The position numbers and the translations under genes are program-made. Of a DNA stretch of 46,402 nucleotides, positions 6,221 through 19,401 are shown piece by piece. Location: contig CACDDB010000005.1 of NCBI GenBank assembly GCA_902551445.1, positions 1-46,402 of the forward strand, written 5' to 3'. Every line of letters starts with the position of its first letter. Position 1 is the first letter of the stretch. Source of the DNA: an uncultured Pelagibacteraceae bacterium. GTDB lineage: Bacteria > Pseudomonadota > Alphaproteobacteria > Pelagibacterales > Pelagibacteraceae. A model generated the notes under the pieces. That model was not told where the DNA came from, made no database searches, and worked only from the letters and a program-made list of their open reading frames with translations.

Positions 6221-6407
6221 TTAATCTCCTCTTTAAATTTAAATTTAAAAAGCTGATTTAAGTTGATTATAAGAGTGATGTAAATGGAAGAATTGTTCGA
6301 AACGGTGCATATAAATATTTATACAATTATAAGTTGCATATATGGAACAATAATTTTCTAGTTAAAGCTTTTAAATTAGTCTAAATACAATTTTTTATTA
6401 ATTTTAT

Positions 6408-7754
6408 ATGAGCTCAGAAAATAAAACATCTATTCCAAATTCGTTAAATGAACATTGGATGCCATTTACATCTAATAAAGATTTCAAAGAAAATCCTAGA
6501 TTAATTACTGAAGCTAATGGTTGTTATTTAAAAAATCACCAAGGAAAGACAATGATTGACGCTAGCTCAGGTCTTTTTTGCAATCCACTTGGACATGGTA
6601 GAAAAGAAATAATTGATGCAGTAACTAAACAGTTAAAAACTTTGGATTATTGTCAACCATTTCAACAGGGATTTGGTGGATCATTTGAATTAGCAACTAA
6701 AATATCCAAGCATACTCCAGGAAATCTTAATAGAATATTTTATACAATATGTGGATCAACTGCTGTTGAGACTGCGATAAAAATTGCAGTAGCTTATCAT
6801 AAAGCAAGAGGAGAGGGTCATCGATATAGATTTGTAGGAAGGGAAAGAGCGTACCACGGTATGAATATAGGAGCTACATCAGTTGGTGGCATGGTTAACA
6901 ATGTTAAAACTTTTGCAAGTGTAATGATGCCTGGTGTATTACATATGAGACACACTCATTTGCCAGAACATAAATTTGTTTCTGGACAACCAGAAACAGG
7001 CGCTGAACTAGCAAATGATTTAGAGAGATTTTGTATTAACTTCGGTGCAGAAAACATTGCTGCTTGCATAGTAGAACCAGTTGCAGGATCTACAGGAACT
7101 TTGGTTCCACCTAAGGGTTACTTACAAAGATTAAGAGAAATTTGTGATAAACATGGAATACTTCTTATTTTTGATGAAGTGATTACAGGATGGGGAAGAA
7201 TGGGATCAGCCTTTGGATCACAAGAATTTGGAGTGACTCCAGATTTAATGACAATGGCAAAAGCTACAACAAATGGAATTGTCCCAATGGGTGTAGTTGC
7301 ATGCAAGGAAGAAATTTATGATGCAGTAATGGAAGGCTCACCTAAAGGTACTATAGAATTATTTCATGGTTACACTTACTCAGGTATACCGGTTTCAGTT
7401 GCGGCAGCTTTAGCTGTACAAGAAATATTTGAAAAAGAGGATATATTTAAAAGGGCAAGAGATTTATCTCCATATTTCCAAGAAGCTATTTTTTCATTAC
7501 AGGATATTGATGTAGTTGAAAATATTAGAGGCTATGGAATGATGGCAGGTGTAGATGTTAAAATGGATCAAAAACCAGGTAGAGCAGGCTTTACCTGCTT
7601 CAAACATTGTTACGAGGCAGGGGTTAATTTTAAAGCTACTGGAGACTGCTTAATTATTGCACCTATGTTTATTTCTGAAAAAAAACATATTGATGAGATA
7701 ATAGATAAACTAAGAACCGGTATTCTAAATTATTCAAAAAGTAAAAAAAATTAA
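6408..7754 (+). CDS. Class III PLP aminotransferase, taurine-pyruvate / omega-amino acid-pyruvate aminotransferase type
   Basis: LIFDEVITGWGRMGSAFGSQEFGVTPDLMTMAKATTNGIVPMG (PLP-lysine region), RERAYHGMNIGATSVGG; divergent from tauA and upstream of ald. Confidence 0.85.
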   Translation: MSSENKTSIPNSLNEHWMPFTSNKDFKENPRLITEANGCYLKNHQGKTMIDASSGLFCNPLGHGRKEIIDAVTKQLKTLDYCQPFQQGFGGSFELATKISKHTPGNLNRIFYTICGSTAVETAIKIAVAYHKARGEGHRYRFVGRERAYHGMNIGATSVGGMVNNVKTFASVMMPGVLHMRHTHLPEHKFVSGQPETGAELANDLERFCINFGAENIAACIVEPVAGSTGTLVPPKGYLQRLREICDKHGILLIFDEVITGWGRMGSAFGSQEFGVTPDLMTMAKATTNGIVPMGVVACKEEIYDAVMEGSPKGTIELFHGYTYSGIPVSVAAALAVQEIFEKEDIFKRARDLSPYFQEAIFSLQDIDVVENIRGYGMMAGVDVKMDQKPGRAGFTCFKHCYEAGVNFKATGDCLIIAPMFISEKKHIDEIIDKLRTGILNYSKSKKN

Positions 7755-7763
7755 TTTTCATTT

Positions 7764-8879
7764 ATGAAAATTGGCGTTCCCAAAGAAATCAAACCTCAGG
7801 AAAATAGAATTGGTTTAACTCCAGAAAGCGTCAAAATTTTAGTTTCCAATGGCCACGAAGTATTAGTAGAAAATAATGGAGGATTTGAAGCTGGATTTTA
7901 TAATGAACAATATAAATCAGCAGGAGCTAAATTAATTGATAAAGCAGAAGATATATTTGATGATGCTGAAATTATAGTCAAAGTAAAAGAACCTCTTGCA
8001 AACGAAGTAAAGATGATAAGAGAAAATCAAATAGTTTTTACATATCTTCATTTAGCAGCTGCAAAAGAATTAACCCAAGGACTAATTAATTCTAAAAGCG
8101 TTTGTATAGCCTATGAGACTGTAACAGATAAAAATGGCAGACTTCCATTATTGGCTCCTATGAGTGCTGTAGCAGGAAGAATGTCTGTTCAGGCAGGTGC
8201 TCATTGTTTAGAAAAAAATCAAAAAGGAAGGGGCTTGTTATTAGGAGGGGCACCAGGCGTTGAACCAGGAAACGTTGTAATTTTAGGTGGTGGAGTTGTA
8301 GGAGAAAATGCTGCTATTATTGCAACTGGAATGAAGGCAAAAGTACATATTGTTGATAAATCAGAGGCTAGATTAAAGCAATTAACAGAAATATTTGGAG
8401 ACAAAATTATACCTGAGCATAGTGATAAAATTGATTTAGAAAAGTTAATTTCAAATTGTGACTTATTAGTTGGAGGAGTATTAATACCAGGCGCGGAAGC
8501 ACCAAAACTTGTTACTAAGGGTATGATAAAAAAAATGAAAAGAGGATCTGTAATTGTTGATGTGGCTATTGATCAAGGAGGATGTGTTGAAACGAGCAAA
8601 CCAACAACACATGCTGAACCAACTTATATAGTAGATGACATTGTGCATTATTGTGTAGCAAATATGCCAGGTGGAGTTCCAAGAACATCAACACTCGCTT
8701 TAAATAAAGCAACATTACCTTTCTTGAATAAACTTGCCAAAGATGGTTATCAAAAAGCCTTAAGTGAAGATGCTAATTTTTTAGCAGGACTTAATGTTTG
8801 TAAAGGTAATGTTACATATAAGGCAGTAGCTGATGCTTTTGGCCATAAATTTACATCTTCAAGAGAGGCGATTGCATAA
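7764..8879 (+). CDS. ald: Alanine dehydrogenase
   Basis: MKIGVPKEIKPQENRIGLTPESV, LHLAAAKELTQGL, PMSAVAGRMSVQAGAH, VVILGGGVVGENAA, VANMPGGVPRTSTLALNKATLPF. Confidence 0.95.
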   Translation: MKIGVPKEIKPQENRIGLTPESVKILVSNGHEVLVENNGGFEAGFYNEQYKSAGAKLIDKAEDIFDDAEIIVKVKEPLANEVKMIRENQIVFTYLHLAAAKELTQGLINSKSVCIAYETVTDKNGRLPLLAPMSAVAGRMSVQAGAHCLEKNQKGRGLLLGGAPGVEPGNVVILGGGVVGENAAIIATGMKAKVHIVDKSEARLKQLTEIFGDKIIPEHSDKIDLEKLISNCDLLVGGVLIPGAEAPKLVTKGMIKKMKRGSVIVDVAIDQGGCVETSKPTTHAEPTYIVDDIVHYCVANMPGGVPRTSTLALNKATLPFLNKLAKDGYQKALSEDANFLAGLNVCKGNVTYKAVADAFGHKFTSSREAIA

Positions 8880-9319
8880 TGTACAGACCGTTACCAGATG
8901 GATTAACAATAAAAAACTCACCTATCGAAGGATTGGGTTTATTCACAAATATTAGTATTAAAAAAAATACTTTTATTGGCGTAACTCATATTAGAGATGA
9001 GCAATTTGATAATAAATATATTAGGACACCGTTAGGTGGTTTTTATAATCATTCAAACGATCCAACAGTAATGAGAATGGTATCAGATACGCTACCAAGA
9101 TTAAAATTTGGCGATGAAATAGATCCTAAAATGGCTGGTAAAAAAATAAAAGATGGAAAAACTGATAGAGAAAACATGTATTACAATTTACAAGATAAAA
9201 TTGATGCAAAGTTTATGTTTATTGTAACTGTAAAAGATGTCAAACCAGGCGACGAACTGACAGCTAATTATAATCTTTATACCTATCCTAAAACAGGAGT
9301 AGGAATACAAATGATTTAA
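8879..9319 (+). CDS. SET-domain protein (putative protein lysine methyltransferase)
   Basis: SPIEGLGLFTNISIKKNTFIG, GGFYNHSNDPTVMR (NHSxxP motif), DVKPGDELTANYNLYTY. Confidence 0.8.
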   Translation: MYRPLPDGLTIKNSPIEGLGLFTNISIKKNTFIGVTHIRDEQFDNKYIRTPLGGFYNHSNDPTVMRMVSDTLPRLKFGDEIDPKMAGKKIKDGKTDRENMYYNLQDKIDAKFMFIVTVKDVKPGDELTANYNLYTYPKTGVGIQMI

Positions 9320-11763
9320 TGAAAGAACTCCCTAGCGCTACAAAAGTCATTGTAATAGGTGGTGGAGTAGCAGGATGTTCAACAGCCTATCATCTAGCAA
9401 AATTTGGATGGAAAGACACAATATTACTTGAAAGAGATCAGCTAACTTCCGGAACAACGTGGCATGCAGCTGGATTAGTAAGTCAGCTAGGACCCTCTGC
9501 TGCAATTACTAAAATTAGAAAGTATTCATTAGAGTTATATAAAAAATTAGAGAAAGAAATAGATTTTTCAAGTGGTTTAAAACTAAATGGAGCTTTATCA
9601 ATTGCTACTTCACAAGGAAGGTGGCAGGAATTAAAACGACAAGCAACTACAGCTCAATTGTTTGATGTAAATGTTGAAGTACTTAATGTTGATCAAATAA
9701 AAAAAATATATCCAATAATTAATGACAGTAACATTTTAGGGGGCATTTTCATGCCAGGAGATGGTCAAGCAGATCCCATAGGTGTTACTAATTTACTTGC
9801 AAAGGCAGCTAGAAAAGAAGGAGTTAAAATTTTTGAAAAATCTCCTGTTGAAAAAATAATTAAAAAAAATGGAAAAGTAGCTGGTGTAACAGTAAATGGT
9901 AAAAATATAGAATGTGAATACATAGTTTTAGCAACAGGAATGTGGTCTAGGCAAATAGGAGAAGATATGGGTTTTAGTATTCCACTTTATCCAGCAGAAC
10001 ATTTTTATGTAATAACTGAAGCAATTAAAGAATTACCAGAAAAGATACCTGTACTTAGAGATTTTAACGACAGTTTATATTTAAAAGAAGATGCAGGTAA
10101 AATGTTAATTGGAATATTTGAAGGAAAATCAATTCCAGCATTTAACAAAACTAATAGAGTTCCCGAAGACTTTTCATATGGAGAATTTCCAGAAAATTTT
10201 GAACATTTTGAACCTTATTTAGAAGCTGCTTTAAAAAGAGTTCCTCTCTTAGAAAAAGCAGGGATTAGAAAATTTTTCGCAGGACCAGAATCGTTTACAC
10301 CAGATACTAATACTCTCTTAGGTGAAGTGCCAGAAATGAAAAATTTATTTGCTTGTTGTGGTTTAAATAGTATTGGAATTGGAAGTGGAGGTGGAGTAGG
10401 AAAAGTAACAGCTGAATGGATGATTAATGGACATATAAATGAAGATTTATTTATTTACGATATAAAAAGATTCCAAAAATTCCATTCAGAAATAAATTTT
10501 ATTAAAGAACGAATTACTGAAACCTTAGGTGATTTATATGGAATGCACTGGCCATACAAACAACACAAAACATCTAGAAACCAAAAATTACTTCCATATC
10601 ATGACGAACTAAAGAAAGCAGGAGCATGCTTTGGAGTATCATCAGGATATGAAAGACCAATGTGGTTTGCAAAAAAAAATGAAAAACCTGAAATTGAATA
10701 CAGTTATAATTATCAAAATTGGTATCCCTCAGTAGAATTTGAAACGAAAAATACAAGAGAAAACGTTGGCTTGTTTGATCTTACTGCTTTTTCAAAATAT
10801 GAATTAAAAGGAGAAAAGGCTCATGATGAATTACAAAAAATTTGTACTGCAAACGTAAAAAACGAAATAGGTAAAACAACTTATACTCAAATGCTTAATG
10901 AAGATGGTGGAATAGAAACGGATTTGACTGTGGTTTGTGTGGAAAAAAACTATTTTAGAATTATTACATCAGCTGCCAATAGAGAAAGAGATAAATTTCA
11001 TATTTTAAAACATTTGAATAAAGAAATAGATTTTAAAGATGTAACAGATGATATTGCATGCTTTGGAGTATTTGGTCCTAAAAGTAGAAATTTAATGTCC
11101 AAATTATCCAATGAAGATTTTTCTAGTAGTAGTTTTAAATTTGGAAATAGCAAAAAAATTAAAATTAATAATAAAGAAGTTTGGGCTCAAAGATTATCTT
11201 ATGTAGGAGAATTAGGTTTTGAACTATATGTAAATATGAATGAAGCTAAGGAATTATATAATTTAATTGTTGATGCTGGCAAAGATTTTAAGATTTCACA
11301 TTGTGGTATGTTTGCTTTGGATACGATGAGAATGGAAAGTGGTTTTTTACATTGGGGACATGATATTTCACCAGAAGAAAATCAATATCAGGCTGGTCTT
11401 CAATTTGCAATTAGTTATAAAAAAAATGTAGATTTTGTAGGAAAAAAATCTTTATTGAAAATTAAAGATAAAAAACCATCAAAAAAAATTATGATGTTTA
11501 ATTTAAAGGATGCTACACCAGGAAAGCCTCTATTGCTGCATGATGAACCAATTTATTTAAAAGACAAAATAATTGGCAGAACAACATCTGGAAATTATTC
11601 TTTTAACTACAAAAAAAATATTTCTTTTGGGTATGTTAATTCTGAATATTCAATAGAAGATCTTATAGATAAAGATTTATTTATTGAGGTAGAAAAGAAA
11701 AAGTACCCCGCAAGTGCACTTTTAAAACCTTTAAATAATCTGTTAAAACAAAACAGAAATTGA
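9319..11763 (+). CDS. FAD-dependent dimethylglycine/sarcosine dehydrogenase-like oxidoreductase with C-terminal GcvT-like (THF-binding) domain
   Basis: N-terminal VIVIGGGVAGCSTAYHLAKFGWKDTILLERDQLTSGTTWHAAGLV; C-terminal YVGELGFELYVNMNEAKELYNLIVDAGKDFKISHCGMFALDTMRMESGFLHWGHDISPEENQYQAGL. Confidence 0.92.
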   Translation: MKELPSATKVIVIGGGVAGCSTAYHLAKFGWKDTILLERDQLTSGTTWHAAGLVSQLGPSAAITKIRKYSLELYKKLEKEIDFSSGLKLNGALSIATSQGRWQELKRQATTAQLFDVNVEVLNVDQIKKIYPIINDSNILGGIFMPGDGQADPIGVTNLLAKAARKEGVKIFEKSPVEKIIKKNGKVAGVTVNGKNIECEYIVLATGMWSRQIGEDMGFSIPLYPAEHFYVITEAIKELPEKIPVLRDFNDSLYLKEDAGKMLIGIFEGKSIPAFNKTNRVPEDFSYGEFPENFEHFEPYLEAALKRVPLLEKAGIRKFFAGPESFTPDTNTLLGEVPEMKNLFACCGLNSIGIGSGGGVGKVTAEWMINGHINEDLFIYDIKRFQKFHSEINFIKERITETLGDLYGMHWPYKQHKTSRNQKLLPYHDELKKAGACFGVSSGYERPMWFAKKNEKPEIEYSYNYQNWYPSVEFETKNTRENVGLFDLTAFSKYELKGEKAHDELQKICTANVKNEIGKTTYTQMLNEDGGIETDLTVVCVEKNYFRIITSAANRERDKFHILKHLNKEIDFKDVTDDIACFGVFGPKSRNLMSKLSNEDFSSSSFKFGNSKKIKINNKEVWAQRLSYVGELGFELYVNMNEAKELYNLIVDAGKDFKISHCGMFALDTMRMESGFLHWGHDISPEENQYQAGLQFAISYKKNVDFVGKKSLLKIKDKKPSKKIMMFNLKDATPGKPLLLHDEPIYLKDKIIGRTTSGNYSFNYKKNISFGYVNSEYSIEDLIDKDLFIEVEKKKYPASALLKPLNNLLKQNRN

Positions 11764-11862
11764 AAATTTTCTGATACAGAATATAAAATTTAATACAAAA
11801 CTCATTTTGAGCGCAGGGCTAGTTGAGGTGATTCGCTTGTTATGATTTACTCGTATTTGGAT

Positions 11863-12069
11863 ATGAGCGGGGAACAGACATCAATAGACAGTAATTACCA
11901 AGAAGTAACAGCCGAAACTGCTACTAAAAAAAGACCAGCAAAAGTAGATATTAATGTTCTTTTAAACAAAGTTAGAAAAGAAAAGAAAAAAGAAAAAATA
12001 GAAGGTTATATTTTTTTAGGATTGATAAGCTCAGTAATTTTAATCGGCGGAATAATAGTATCTTTATAA
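11863..12069 (+). CDS. Small single-TM protein of unknown function
   Basis: ORF track 11842..12069; internal ATG at 11863 (MSGEQTSID...) is an alternative start; C-terminal hydrophobic helix IFLGLISSVILIGGIIVSL. Confidence 0.5.
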   Translation: MSGEQTSIDSNYQEVTAETATKKRPAKVDINVLLNKVRKEKKKEKIEGYIFLGLISSVILIGGIIVSL

Positions 12070-12118
12070 TTCAATAATAATCCTTAATTTTACCCCAAAA
12101 AATATGTAGTTAATAGTT

Positions 12119-12562
12119 ATGGGAAGAATTATTAAAATTGGAATTACAAAATTAATACATAATCCAATTGATAGCGTAGAATCAATAGAAGTTGTTGCAG
12201 GAAAAGGAATAAAAGGAGATAGAAAATTTCAAGATAATAATGCCAAAGATCAACAATTAACTTTAATTGAAAGCGAAAACATAGATTATTATAACAAAAA
12301 ATATAATTCGAATTTTTCTTATTTGGATTTTAGAAGAAATTTAATTACTAAAAATATTAGACTTAATGATTTAGTTGGTAAAAATCTACTTATCGGAGAA
12401 GCTAAGGTTAAAGGGATAGATCTTTGTAGACCGTGCAAAGAACTTGAAGAAAAATTACGAGCCACCAATTATTTAAAAGAATTTTTAAGGAGTGGTGGAC
12501 TTAGGTGTGAAATATTAAGTTCAGGATCAATAAAAGTTGATGATAAAATATCTATTTTGTAA
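12119..12562 (+). CDS. MOSC-domain protein
   Basis: IEVVAGKGIKGDRKF, QLTLIESENI, LDFRRNLITKNI, DLCRPCKELEE. Confidence 0.85.
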   Translation: MGRIIKIGITKLIHNPIDSVESIEVVAGKGIKGDRKFQDNNAKDQQLTLIESENIDYYNKKYNSNFSYLDFRRNLITKNIRLNDLVGKNLLIGEAKVKGIDLCRPCKELEEKLRATNYLKEFLRSGGLRCEILSSGSIKVDDKISIL

Positions 12563-13586
12563 AAGTTTCGTTAAATTGATTACTAACTCTTACAAACGTT
12601 GTGCACTTACTTAATTGTTTTAATGATGGAGCGCCAACATAAGTACAACTGCTTCTAACGCCACCTAGAATATTCAATATTGTATCATTTATTTTGCCTC
12701 TATATTTAATTCTAACAGATCTCCCTTCACTACTTCTGTAAGAAGACAATCCACCATAATGTTTTTTATTAGCTGTTTCAGAACTTGAACCATAAAATTC
12801 AACAAACTTACTTCCATTCGATTTTAAAATTTTACCACCACCTTCATCATGACCTGCAAACATTCCACCAAGCATAACAAAATCTGCTCCACCACCAAAC
12901 CCCTTTGCAACATCTCCAGGACAAGTACATCCTCCATCTGCAATTATATGTGCACCTAATCCGTGCGCTGCATCAGCACATTCAATAACGGCACTTAGCT
13001 GAGGATATCCAACACCAGTTTGAATTCTTGTTGTACAAACACTTCCAGGTCCAATTCCAACTTTAACTATATCAGCTCCACTTAATACAAGTTCTTGCGC
13101 CATATCAGCCGTTACAACATTTCCTGCAATTATTGTTTTGGTTGGATATTTATCTCTTACAGATTTTATAAATGCACTAAAATGTTCAGAATAACCATTT
13201 GCTACATCGACACAAATAAATTTAATAAATGAAAATTCTTTTAATACTTTGTCTAACCTTTCAAAATCTTCTTTTTTAATGCCAATACTTAAAGCTAAAT
13301 TTTTATAAATAGATTTTAATTTCTTATACTTTTTTAATTTATTAACATCATGCTGCTTAGTTAAACATGTGATCATTTCAAATTTTGACAAAGATTCTGC
13401 AACACTTAATTCACCAACACCGTCCATATTTGCTGCCATTATTGGAATACCTGACCACTCATTTTTACTATACTTAAATTTGTAAGTTCTTTTTAGATCA
13501 ACATCTTTTCGACTTGATAGAGTACTCCTTTTTGGCCTAAATAAAACGTCTGAATAGTCTAATTTAAGATCTTCTTCAATTCTCAT
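12552..13586 (-). CDS. guaC: GMP reductase / IMPDH-family protein
   Basis: LDYSDVLFRPKRSTLSSRKDV, IMAANMDGVGE, IAGNVVTADMAQELVLSGADIVKVGIGPGSVCTTRIQTGVGYPQLSAV, GADFVMLGGMFAGHDE. Confidence 0.9.
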   Translation of the reverse strand: MRIEEDLKLDYSDVLFRPKRSTLSSRKDVDLKRTYKFKYSKNEWSGIPIMAANMDGVGELSVAESLSKFEMITCLTKQHDVNKLKKYKKLKSIYKNLALSIGIKKEDFERLDKVLKEFSFIKFICVDVANGYSEHFSAFIKSVRDKYPTKTIIAGNVVTADMAQELVLSGADIVKVGIGPGSVCTTRIQTGVGYPQLSAVIECADAAHGLGAHIIADGGCTCPGDVAKGFGGGADFVMLGGMFAGHDEGGGKILKSNGSKFVEFYGSSSETANKKHYGGLSSYRSSEGRSVRIKYRGKINDTILNILGGVRSSCTYVGAPSLKQLSKCTTFVRVSNQFNETFTK

Positions 13587-17654: not shown

Positions 17655-17731
17655 GGCGGGGTAGCTCAGTTGGTTAGAGCGCGGGACTCATAAGCCCGAG
17701 GTCAGTGGTTCGATCCCACTTCCCGCTACCA
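17655..17731 (+). tRNA. tRNA-Met (anticodon CAT), CCA encoded
   Basis: ggcggggtagctcagttggttagagcgcgggactcataagcccgaggtcagtggttcgatcccacttcccgctacca folds as a cloverleaf; anticodon loop CTCATAA; a modified-C34 Ile tRNA is not excluded. Confidence 0.9.
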
Positions 17732-17753
17732 TTCTAGAACGTTTAGTCAATTC

Positions 17754-17773
17754 TTGACACACATATGACACAC
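17754..17773 (+). repeat. Internal end repeat TTGACACACATATGACACAC (left copy)
   Basis: Near-identical to 19264-19282 (TTGACACACATATGACTCA). Confidence 0.8.
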
Positions 17774-17832
17774 TCAGAAACGGAATTTTGAGAACTCGGG
17801 AAGTTACTTTAATGAATAAGGTATTAATATTA

Positions 17833-18138
17833 TTAAGATTGGCTAAATAAATACATCGATATGAAAAAAAAAACTAAACTAAATGCTAGATCGCTCCAAT
17901 TGTTTTTTAAAAAATCATTCATTTCATAATTTTTTTTAATTTCTTTATGGATTTTTTGTTCATATTTGAGCCCGCTATAATAAATATATAAAAAAAAACC
18001 GCTTATACCCAATGCAAGCAAAGCACCAGGTAGAATTAAATTTTCACAAGAACTACCTCCACTGCAAATTCTAAATCTAGCATATGAATTTGTTGACCAC
18101 AACAAACCCAGAACCACGATCCCTAAAAGCTTTTTCAT
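17833..18138 (-). CDS. Small exported/membrane protein of unknown function carried by the element
   Basis: Signal peptide MKKLLGIVVLGLLWSTNSYA plus two hydrophobic helices. Confidence 0.65.
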   Translation of the reverse strand: MKKLLGIVVLGLLWSTNSYARFRICSGGSSCENLILPGALLALGISGFFLYIYYSGLKYEQKIHKEIKKNYEMNDFLKNNWSDLAFSLVFFFISMYLFSQS

Positions 18139-18146
18139 TTATTTTT

Positions 18147-19217
18147 TTATTGTAAACTGTTAATATAATCTGCCAAAGCAGTTATAGTTTTTTTATTTTT
18201 AAATTTTCTAGCATCGTCAGATCCAAGTTTAACTCCTCTATTAAACTCATTATTAGAACTCAATAATTTTTCTGAGTCCATACAAATTTTTGCTCCTAGT
18301 TCTGCACCAAAAACCATACCAAAAAAAGCAAGACTACCAATTAACCAACTTTCTTCATCAGCTATTTTTCCTGAAGTTTGATAACAATAATCAGCAAAGC
18401 CATAAAGATATCCATAAACAAAATTATCTCTAGGAAGTGTTTTTAAAGGATCTTTATTTTTTTTAAAATAGTCCAAACCCTTAACCGTTATGCTTAATTG
18501 ATGCCTTATAACCCCTAGAAGTATACTATTCAGTTTCCCAGCAGTTTTAGAGTTTTCTTTCATTTGATCAAACATAATATTTTTCTTAGAATCTTTTGTT
18601 TTAAGGATAGGTTTAATTTTTGATTTAGTTTTATTCTTTTTAATATTCTGCATTATTTTTCTAGATAAATTTCTTTCTGAAGAGATTGATTTCTTTTTTT
18701 TTTTGAAAATAATAAAAATTATAAAAATAAATAATATGAATAATATTATTCCAAAAATCTTAATAAGATTTTCTTTTTTCAATTCATTATTATAAACATT
18801 TTCCCAATACACCATTCTCATTTTAGGATCAGATAATGAATTGATGCATTTTTTAGCATAATCAACCAAAAGTTCAGAATTTGAATAATCGTACCCAACT
18901 TTTTCAAGAAAAGACTTGTATATTTTTTCTACATTTGTCTGAACATTATCATTAGAAATTTTTAGTTCTTGTGCAAAAAAAAACATATTTTTTTCTGATT
19001 CCTCACTTAATGAAATAGCTTTACTCATAAATTTCTTTTGTTCATTAGTTAATTCCCCTCTTTTTTCTACACCTCTCGCTATAAATTTATAATAAACAGT
19101 ACATTCAGAATATTCTTGATAAAGTTTATTAAATACGAATTGTTCTGTTGGTGTGGCTGAAAATAAATTTGATGATGATAATAAATAAAAAATAGAATAA
19201 AATATATACCTCTTCAT
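18147..19217 (-). CDS. Membrane protein of unknown function (signal peptide, extracytoplasmic domain, TM, basic linker, C-terminal domain) carried by the element
   Basis: 356-aa ORF; signal peptide ...YLLSSSNLFSA; TM IFGIILFILFIFIIFIIF followed by KKKKK; C-terminal domain DNFVYGYLYGFADYCYQTSGK...AELGAKICMD. Confidence 0.75.
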   Translation of the reverse strand: MKRYIFYSIFYLLSSSNLFSATPTEQFVFNKLYQEYSECTVYYKFIARGVEKRGELTNEQKKFMSKAISLSEESEKNMFFFAQELKISNDNVQTNVEKIYKSFLEKVGYDYSNSELLVDYAKKCINSLSDPKMRMVYWENVYNNELKKENLIKIFGIILFILFIFIIFIIFKKKKKSISSERNLSRKIMQNIKKNKTKSKIKPILKTKDSKKNIMFDQMKENSKTAGKLNSILLGVIRHQLSITVKGLDYFKKNKDPLKTLPRDNFVYGYLYGFADYCYQTSGKIADEESWLIGSLAFFGMVFGAELGAKICMDSEKLLSSNNEFNRGVKLGSDDARKFKNKKTITALADYINSLQ

Positions 19218-19238
19218 ATCTAAACGTTATCAAATATT

Positions 19239-19247
19239 TTGACACAC
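19239..19247 (+). repeat. Internal repeat TTGACACAC (extra right-end copy)
   Basis: Matches the core of the 17754 and 19264 repeats. Confidence 0.5.
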
Positions 19248-19263
19248 TAAAATTGGAAATTCC

Positions 19264-19282
19264 TTGACACACATATGACTCA
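19264..19282 (+). repeat. Internal end repeat TTGACACACATATGACTCA (right copy)
   Basis: Near-identical to 17754-17773. Confidence 0.8.
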
Positions 19283-19345
19283 TTGCGTTAGGATTTTTAT
19301 TATTTTCTTAACGTTTTATGGTATAAAAACGTAGAGAAAGGGTGT

Positions 19346-19401
19346 AGCGCGGGACTCATAAGCCCGAGGTCAGTGGTTCGATCCCACTTCCCGCTACCAT
19401 T
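19346..19401 (+). pseudogene. Partial tRNA-Met duplication (3' part; attachment-site-like)
   Basis: 56 bp identical to 17678-17733; the sequence upstream (gtagagaaagggtgt) does not supply the acceptor 5' strand or D-arm. Confidence 0.9.

Follow-up and report, generated by a model that had tools for sequence, protein, structure and literature searches.

Integrase-less DNA flanked by attachment sites and standing in tandem at one RNA gene is known from CIMEs and from the ssrA islands of Dehalococcoides (PMC3146451). The latter were interpreted as possible cis-mobilizable elements, and mobilisation together with a neighbouring element was proposed for them (PMC3146451). Here we describe a family of small gene cassettes at a tRNA-Met gene of SAR11 bacteria. 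Like CIMEs, the SAR11 cassettes are flanked by attL and attR and encode neither integration nor transfer genes, but they go down to 0.55 kb and fall into four end classes, and their integrase-bearing relatives resemble phage satellites rather than conjugative elements. In the portions of the published accounts available to us, fGI1 of Actinomarinales (PMC7771536) and fGI-2 of Methylopumilus (PMC10872708) are likewise small tRNA cassettes with direct repeats of part of the tRNA, and fGI1, like the SAR11 cassette, forms part of a glycan island in a marine bacterium with a streamlined genome (PMC7771536). Those islands belong to other tRNAs and other taxa (tRNA-Lys repeat islands in Methylopumilus, PMC10872708), and the same portions mention neither paired subterminal repeats nor end classes and give no recombination anatomy. 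Occupancy that varies between relatives, the mark of additive genomic-island tRNA cassettes, was found here as well.

CALIN arrays and MITEs ('hitchers', PMC11389934) also retain only recognition sites around small cargo units and depend on a recombinase acting in trans. In the SAR11 family, however, the site consists of a tRNA anticodon-loop core with putative arm repeats rather than attC sites or terminal inverted repeats. No integron integrase was found at the cassette loci and, judged from the form of the site (tRNA cores plus 11-bp-period repeats, no integrase gene), these are not integron or CALIN units. Tycheposons, as PMC10872708 presents them, and tRNA-targeting phage satellites share with the cassettes integration at tRNAs, streamlined marine hosts and accessory metabolic cargo; as described there, they carry a tyrosine recombinase and span 4-200 kb, whereas the cassettes have none and span 0.55-5 kb. 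The cassettes are thus not tycheposons, which encode their own tyrosine recombinase, nor are they phage satellites of the PICI/PICMI-like kind, which have an integrase of their own together with replication or packaging-interference genes and which only two integrase-bearing elements described below (L242 and L243, with Int and a primase-like gene) partly resemble. We found no description of a tRNA-Met cassette family in SAR11 in the literature searched, which took in few subscription papers, and we claim no priority. What our comparisons appear to add to the known systems is the attachment anatomy: end classes, 11-bp-period pairs set at a constant spacing, and satellites with the same geometry.

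The window, by which we mean the whole 46,402-bp stretch of DNA analysed, comes from a genome (G000) of 729 kb that is 56% complete. Because the members of its genus in genome_contigs are uncultured Pelagibacteraceae and 'Ca. Pelagibacter ubique', we place it in SAR11, the dominant bacteria of the ocean. A repeat search of the window returned an exact 56-nt direct repeat at 17678-17733 and 19346-19401, with a spacing of 1668, and an exact repeat of this length within 46 kb is not a chance event. ARAGORN called one intact tRNA-Met in the window, at 17655-17731, which is completed by the left copy; the right copy, which lacks a 5' half, gave no tRNA call. These results agree with the first-pass annotation, which had described a 1,668-bp insert bounded by an exact duplication of the 3' part of tRNA-Met with the tRNA intact on the left only. 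Its placement of the insert inside a glycan island also holds, given the surrounding GT61, GT2, GT17, LicD and methyltransferase genes. The features of the locus are as follows.

17655..17731, plus strand: intact tRNA-Met (CAT), the integration target, whose 3' half forms attL (ARAGORN).
17678..17733, plus strand: attL core, the left copy of the 56-bp duplication (repeat search).
17687..17693, plus strand: left CTCATAA of the anticodon loop, the putative strand-exchange overlap (sequence; the class B duplication begins just before it).
17755..17772, plus strand: left paired repeat TGACACA-N4-TGACACA, TGACACACATATGACACA, with an 11-bp period, 68 bp from the overlap; putative arm site.
17833..18138, minus strand: cargo ORF of 101 aa, beginning with a recurrent signal-peptide module, MKKLLGIVVLGLLW (ORF list, cassette comparison).
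18147..19217, minus strand: cargo ORF of 356 aa, matching no family, which begins like a signal peptide and has one hydrophobic stretch (ORF list, Pfam, PADLOC, PHROGs).
19237..19341, plus strand: block conserved at the right end of class A (mean identity of 10 cassettes 88% across the final 150 bp).
19265..19282, plus strand: right paired repeat TGACACA-N4-TGACTCA, TGACACACATATGACTCA, 90 bp before the overlap; putative arm site.
19346..19401, plus strand: attR, the right copy of the 56-bp duplication, without the tRNA 5' half (repeat search and ARAGORN).
19355..19361, plus strand: right CTCATAA overlap.

Comparison with relatives narrowed the extent of the duplication. The repeat had been described as running from the 3' side of the D stem through CCA plus 2 bp; of this, the part from the anticodon stem/loop to CCA is truly duplicated, the preceding AGCGCGGG is borne by the element, and the TT that follows CCA matches by chance, since flanks elsewhere diverge immediately past CCA. 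In another cassette class, identity is kept only from GACTCATAAG onward.

Between the repeats lie the two minus-strand ORFs noted earlier, and neither the ORFs nor an integrase profile revealed a recombinase in the 1,668-bp insert. The description of the products as membrane proteins draws on signal-peptide-like and hydrophobic stretches visible by eye; neither the 101-aa nor the 356-aa protein reaches a Pfam cut-off. Neither has a PADLOC match, and the larger has no PHROG match and no relative among viral contigs. A role in phage defence or surface modification had been suggested; no gene of either kind was identified in this insert by Pfam or PADLOC. The first ~40 nt of the shorter ORF (window 18100-18138, minus strand), ATGAAAAAACTTTTAGGGATCGTGGTTCTGGGTTTGTTG, encode a signal peptide, MKKLLGIVVLGLL, and recur at 14 further cassette starts. 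The copies are nearly identical, stand ahead of otherwise unrelated ORFs in class A and class D cassettes, and include a dead copy in L045; the module looks like a shuffled secretion start.

The insert belongs to a larger family. In draft genomes, which make up the whole sample, the tRNA-Met core is present in 300 of the 399 genomes of the genus, and 19 of these, that of the window included, have two or three same-strand core copies 552-3,479 bp apart. The junction pattern occurs in 41 genome_contigs records, nearly all of them uncultured Pelagibacteraceae single-cell genomes that partly overlap the genus set. After de-duplication there were 40 distinct inserts at 33 tRNA-Met loci, ranging from 552 to 5,001 bp (median 1,698 bp); because they share ancestry, these 40 are not independent, and it is safer to count the four end classes. 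Tandem pairs occur at seven loci (L036, L044, L047, L084, L092, L093 and L096), one of which, L093, continues into a third cassette. No recombinase ORF came up at any cassette locus in a search with a profile made from six integrases of SAR11 and phages. Among the cargo are trypsin-like proteases (6 proteins), an ArsP-type permease with a small regulator-like protein, LysE, pirin with a flavodoxin-fold protein and HxlR, HupE, cytochrome b561, an ECF sigma factor, GCV_T, a tautomerase, a UvrD helicase and many secreted proteins of unknown function. A separate tandem array at L140 (G141:C41, ~6400-13040) is made of about nine ~700-bp units encoding one paralogous secreted-protein family, and most units have a tRNA-Met anticodon-loop core followed 67-68 bp later by a TGACACA-type arm pair.

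The cassette ends carry paired repeats that the first-pass annotation did not record. TGACACACATATGACACA and TGACACACATATGACTCA are the only such sites in the window, against 0 expected in shuffled sequence. The 40 cassettes fall into end classes A (10, including that of the window), B (16), C (5) and D (9); within class A the left 75 bp are 93% identical and the right 150 bp 88%, around an interior at the alignment baseline of 33%. A 7-mer pair with an 11-bp period is present at 34 of 40 left ends, compared with a mean of 2.4 and at most 9 in shuffles and with 10 of 40 for the next best period. On the right it is present at 31 of 40 ends, compared with a mean of 6.8 and at most 13 in shuffles. 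Much the same repeat occupies both ends in classes A, C and D, and class B mixes TGCTCCA and GCGTCA. Distances are constrained as well. On the left, measured on the contigs, 66-69 bp separate the CTCATAA loop from the arm pair in the 33 cassettes whose pair matches in at least 6 of 7 positions; on the right, the pair precedes the loop mostly by 90-93 bp (A, C and D) or 132-135 bp (B). We interpret the pairs as putative integrase arm sites. A mirror-image arrangement was seen at L142 (G073), L146 (G191) and L143 (G061), where class A-like arms either follow a tRNA-Met with a replaced 3' half or stand upstream of a complete one.

Several lines of evidence indicate precise insertion of cassettes at this site. 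The first-pass annotation had read the repeats as an attL/attR footprint, had suggested looking for empty tRNA-Met sites in relatives and, in metagenomic reads, for the same ends around other cargo, and had held that a lack of empty sites, with the insert conserved in vertical synteny, would speak against integration. Empty and occupied sites both occur among relatives. The flanks of L038, which holds a 1,640-bp cassette, match those of the empty L031 at 94.3% over 1,122 bp upstream and at 93.9% over 1,200 bp downstream, counted from the first base past CCA; both flanks also match in the occupied/empty pairs L063/L012, L054/L012 and L066/L025. These four pairs, and the recurrence of one set of ends around different cargo in 10 class A cassettes, bear out the footprint, and the contrary outcome does not hold. 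No empty site with the 3' flank of the window itself was found among 200 genomes, since none of them holds a close relative of the gene in that flank. The features expected of tyrosine-integrase integration at a tRNA, namely a duplicated 3' part, an intact tRNA on one side and an empty site, are all present. Moreover, cassettes that are 94-99% identical lie between flanks that show no detectable similarity on one side or on both (L051/L084, L049/L054 and L038/L050), and therefore appear to have moved in integrase-less form.

Elements that do encode an integrase occupy the same tRNA. Each of the complete elements L242 (4.5 kb) and L243 (5.5 kb) is bounded by two tRNA-Met cores, has an arm pair at either end and encodes an integrase together with a primase-like gene and a few small ORFs; the integrases, of 328 and 329 aa, are 71% identical. 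CIMEs derive from an ICE or IME through the loss of its modules; an unsystematic look at the few ORFs of L242 and L243 noticed no conjugation gene. In the integrase elements L195 and L194 (complete as L242 and L243), the overlap lies 69 and 68 bp from the arm pair, compared with 66-69 bp in the cassettes. By eye, the arm pair of L242 and L243 stands ~14-17 nt ahead of the integrase start codon; in class D cassettes the cargo start codon likewise follows the arm pair, by ~16 nt, so that cargo appears to sit in the place of the integrase gene. Relative to the cassettes, L242 and L243 are reversed, the tRNA promoter and 5' half being borne by the element, and we accordingly regard them as analogues, not as proven helpers. 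A decayed relative adjoins the G246 cassette, directly past whose attR come an arm pair and the truncated start of an integrase (N-terminal ~60 aa). Other integrase elements at tRNA-Met (L164-L168) have different arms (TGTGACA repeats) and distances; they measure 2.5-7.6 kb where complete, and ORFs in L165 and L168 resemble, by eye, a type I restriction-modification system. The IMG/VR phage contigs L057-L060 have the tRNA-Met core as attP, with CGTACC arm pairs at other distances and, where the sequence suffices, an adjoining integrase of 424-436 aa; both junctions of an element of this type were seen on two contigs of G392 (L055 and L056). The layout of a repeat before the integrase is not limited to tRNA-Met, as other SAR11 integrases (L192, L193, which is at tmRNA, and L244) have an 11-bp-period repeat just before their start codon.

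With regard to the enzyme that moves the cassettes, a single PF00589 protein, of a kind found genus-wide, is encoded in 13 of the 19 cassette genomes, and the recovered part of the other six encodes none; these proteins have 305-327 aa, one of them being truncated at the end of its contig. An integrase has also been reported in HVR2 of HTCC1062 (PMC2217521). We set the genus-wide recombinase (~317 aa) aside as the enzyme; it has SAM-like and catalytic domains only, and arm binding is unlikely for that reason. Neither the genomes nor IMG/VR yielded an integrase with arm sequences of class A, B, C or D, and class A arms and the right ends of classes A and B had no match in IMG/VR. Matches to the B/D and C arm motifs fell in unrelated phages, a few with an integrase nearby and none at this tRNA core. 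Among GenBank phages, the integrase of L060 had no match, and the sole match to the tRNA core was the tRNA-Met of Sphingomonas phage PAU, which gave no attP lead. An integrase in the same cell may exist, given that the genomes are incomplete (56% for that of the window); the simplest reading would be that the source lies in satellites or phages yet to be sampled.

We consider a non-autonomous integrative gene cassette, served in trans by the tyrosine integrase of another element, the likely identity of the insert, and cassettes of this kind probably spread by borrowing such integrases. The boundaries are precise, empty sites exist, ends are shared around different cargo, similar cassettes stand in unrelated contexts, tandem arrays occur, recombinases are lacking and satellites have the same geometry. 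From this we infer that excision would release a circle of 1,668 bp. Its attP would comprise the anticodon-loop CTCATAA, arm repeats on both sides and, on one of them, the tRNA 3' half. An integrase supplied in trans would bind the paired repeats and recombine attP with the anticodon loop of tRNA-Met, the cassette's own 3' half would restore the tRNA, and repeated rounds at one tRNA would give rise to tandem arrays; a route between cells would complete the cycle.

The first-pass annotation had named both mobilisation in trans and decay, and our comparisons favour the former. If a larger integrase-bearing element had lost its integrase after integrating, the insert would be fossil DNA; the remnant beside the G246 cassette shows that such decay occurs, and integrase satellites are present at this very site. 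Independent decay, however, predicts varied ends and pseudogenes, whereas the 40 inserts keep both class-specific ends intact around unrelated cargo, with mostly intact ORFs and no integrase fragment, which is why we prefer a cargo-only cassette; the near-identical integrase-less copies amid unrelated flanks likewise argue for spread in that form. We therefore regard a decayed remnant as unlikely. Long blocks adjoining one end, common to L036/L061 and to L046/L096, fit crossing over in shared ends, as would be expected if homologous recombination between tRNA-Met regions were the chief means of spread, with ancient tRNA repeats and site-specific recombination no longer active. Yet the flanks just beyond the cores are often dissimilar although the cassettes are 94-99% identical, and the period and position of the arm repeats are kept at both ends in four sequence classes, which homology-driven exchange does not need. 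As the main route it seems to us quite improbable, although homologous recombination may contribute to the exchange of cargo. The draft state of the genome is the one point in favour of ordinary vertical sequence or an assembly artefact that repeats the tRNA end; many independent assemblies have the same anatomy, and precise empty sites refute this account, whose probability we put close to nil.

Non-autonomous cassettes moved in trans may be part of a more general arrangement, which we advance tentatively, as possible rather than probable: a trans-acting cassette system of SAR11 on tRNA-Met, in which cargo would lie between arm sites in the integrase gene's place and the arm sequences (mostly TGnnnCA twice, at an 11-bp period) would be addresses read by the arm-binding domains, themselves exchangeable, of integrases from satellites or phages. 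If true, tRNA-Met would be an integron-like capture platform without a resident integrase. SAR11 genomes are streamlined and contain few recognised mobile elements, and the route by which they gain and swap accessory genes has been described as unknown (PMC7542561). Cassettes of kilobase size at a single tRNA, moved by borrowed integrases, would offer a testable route, with transporters, proteases, redox enzymes, regulators and secreted proteins of unknown function as its cargo, and their fixed geometry combined with changing arm sequences would provide a natural series for the evolution of integrase arm specificity.
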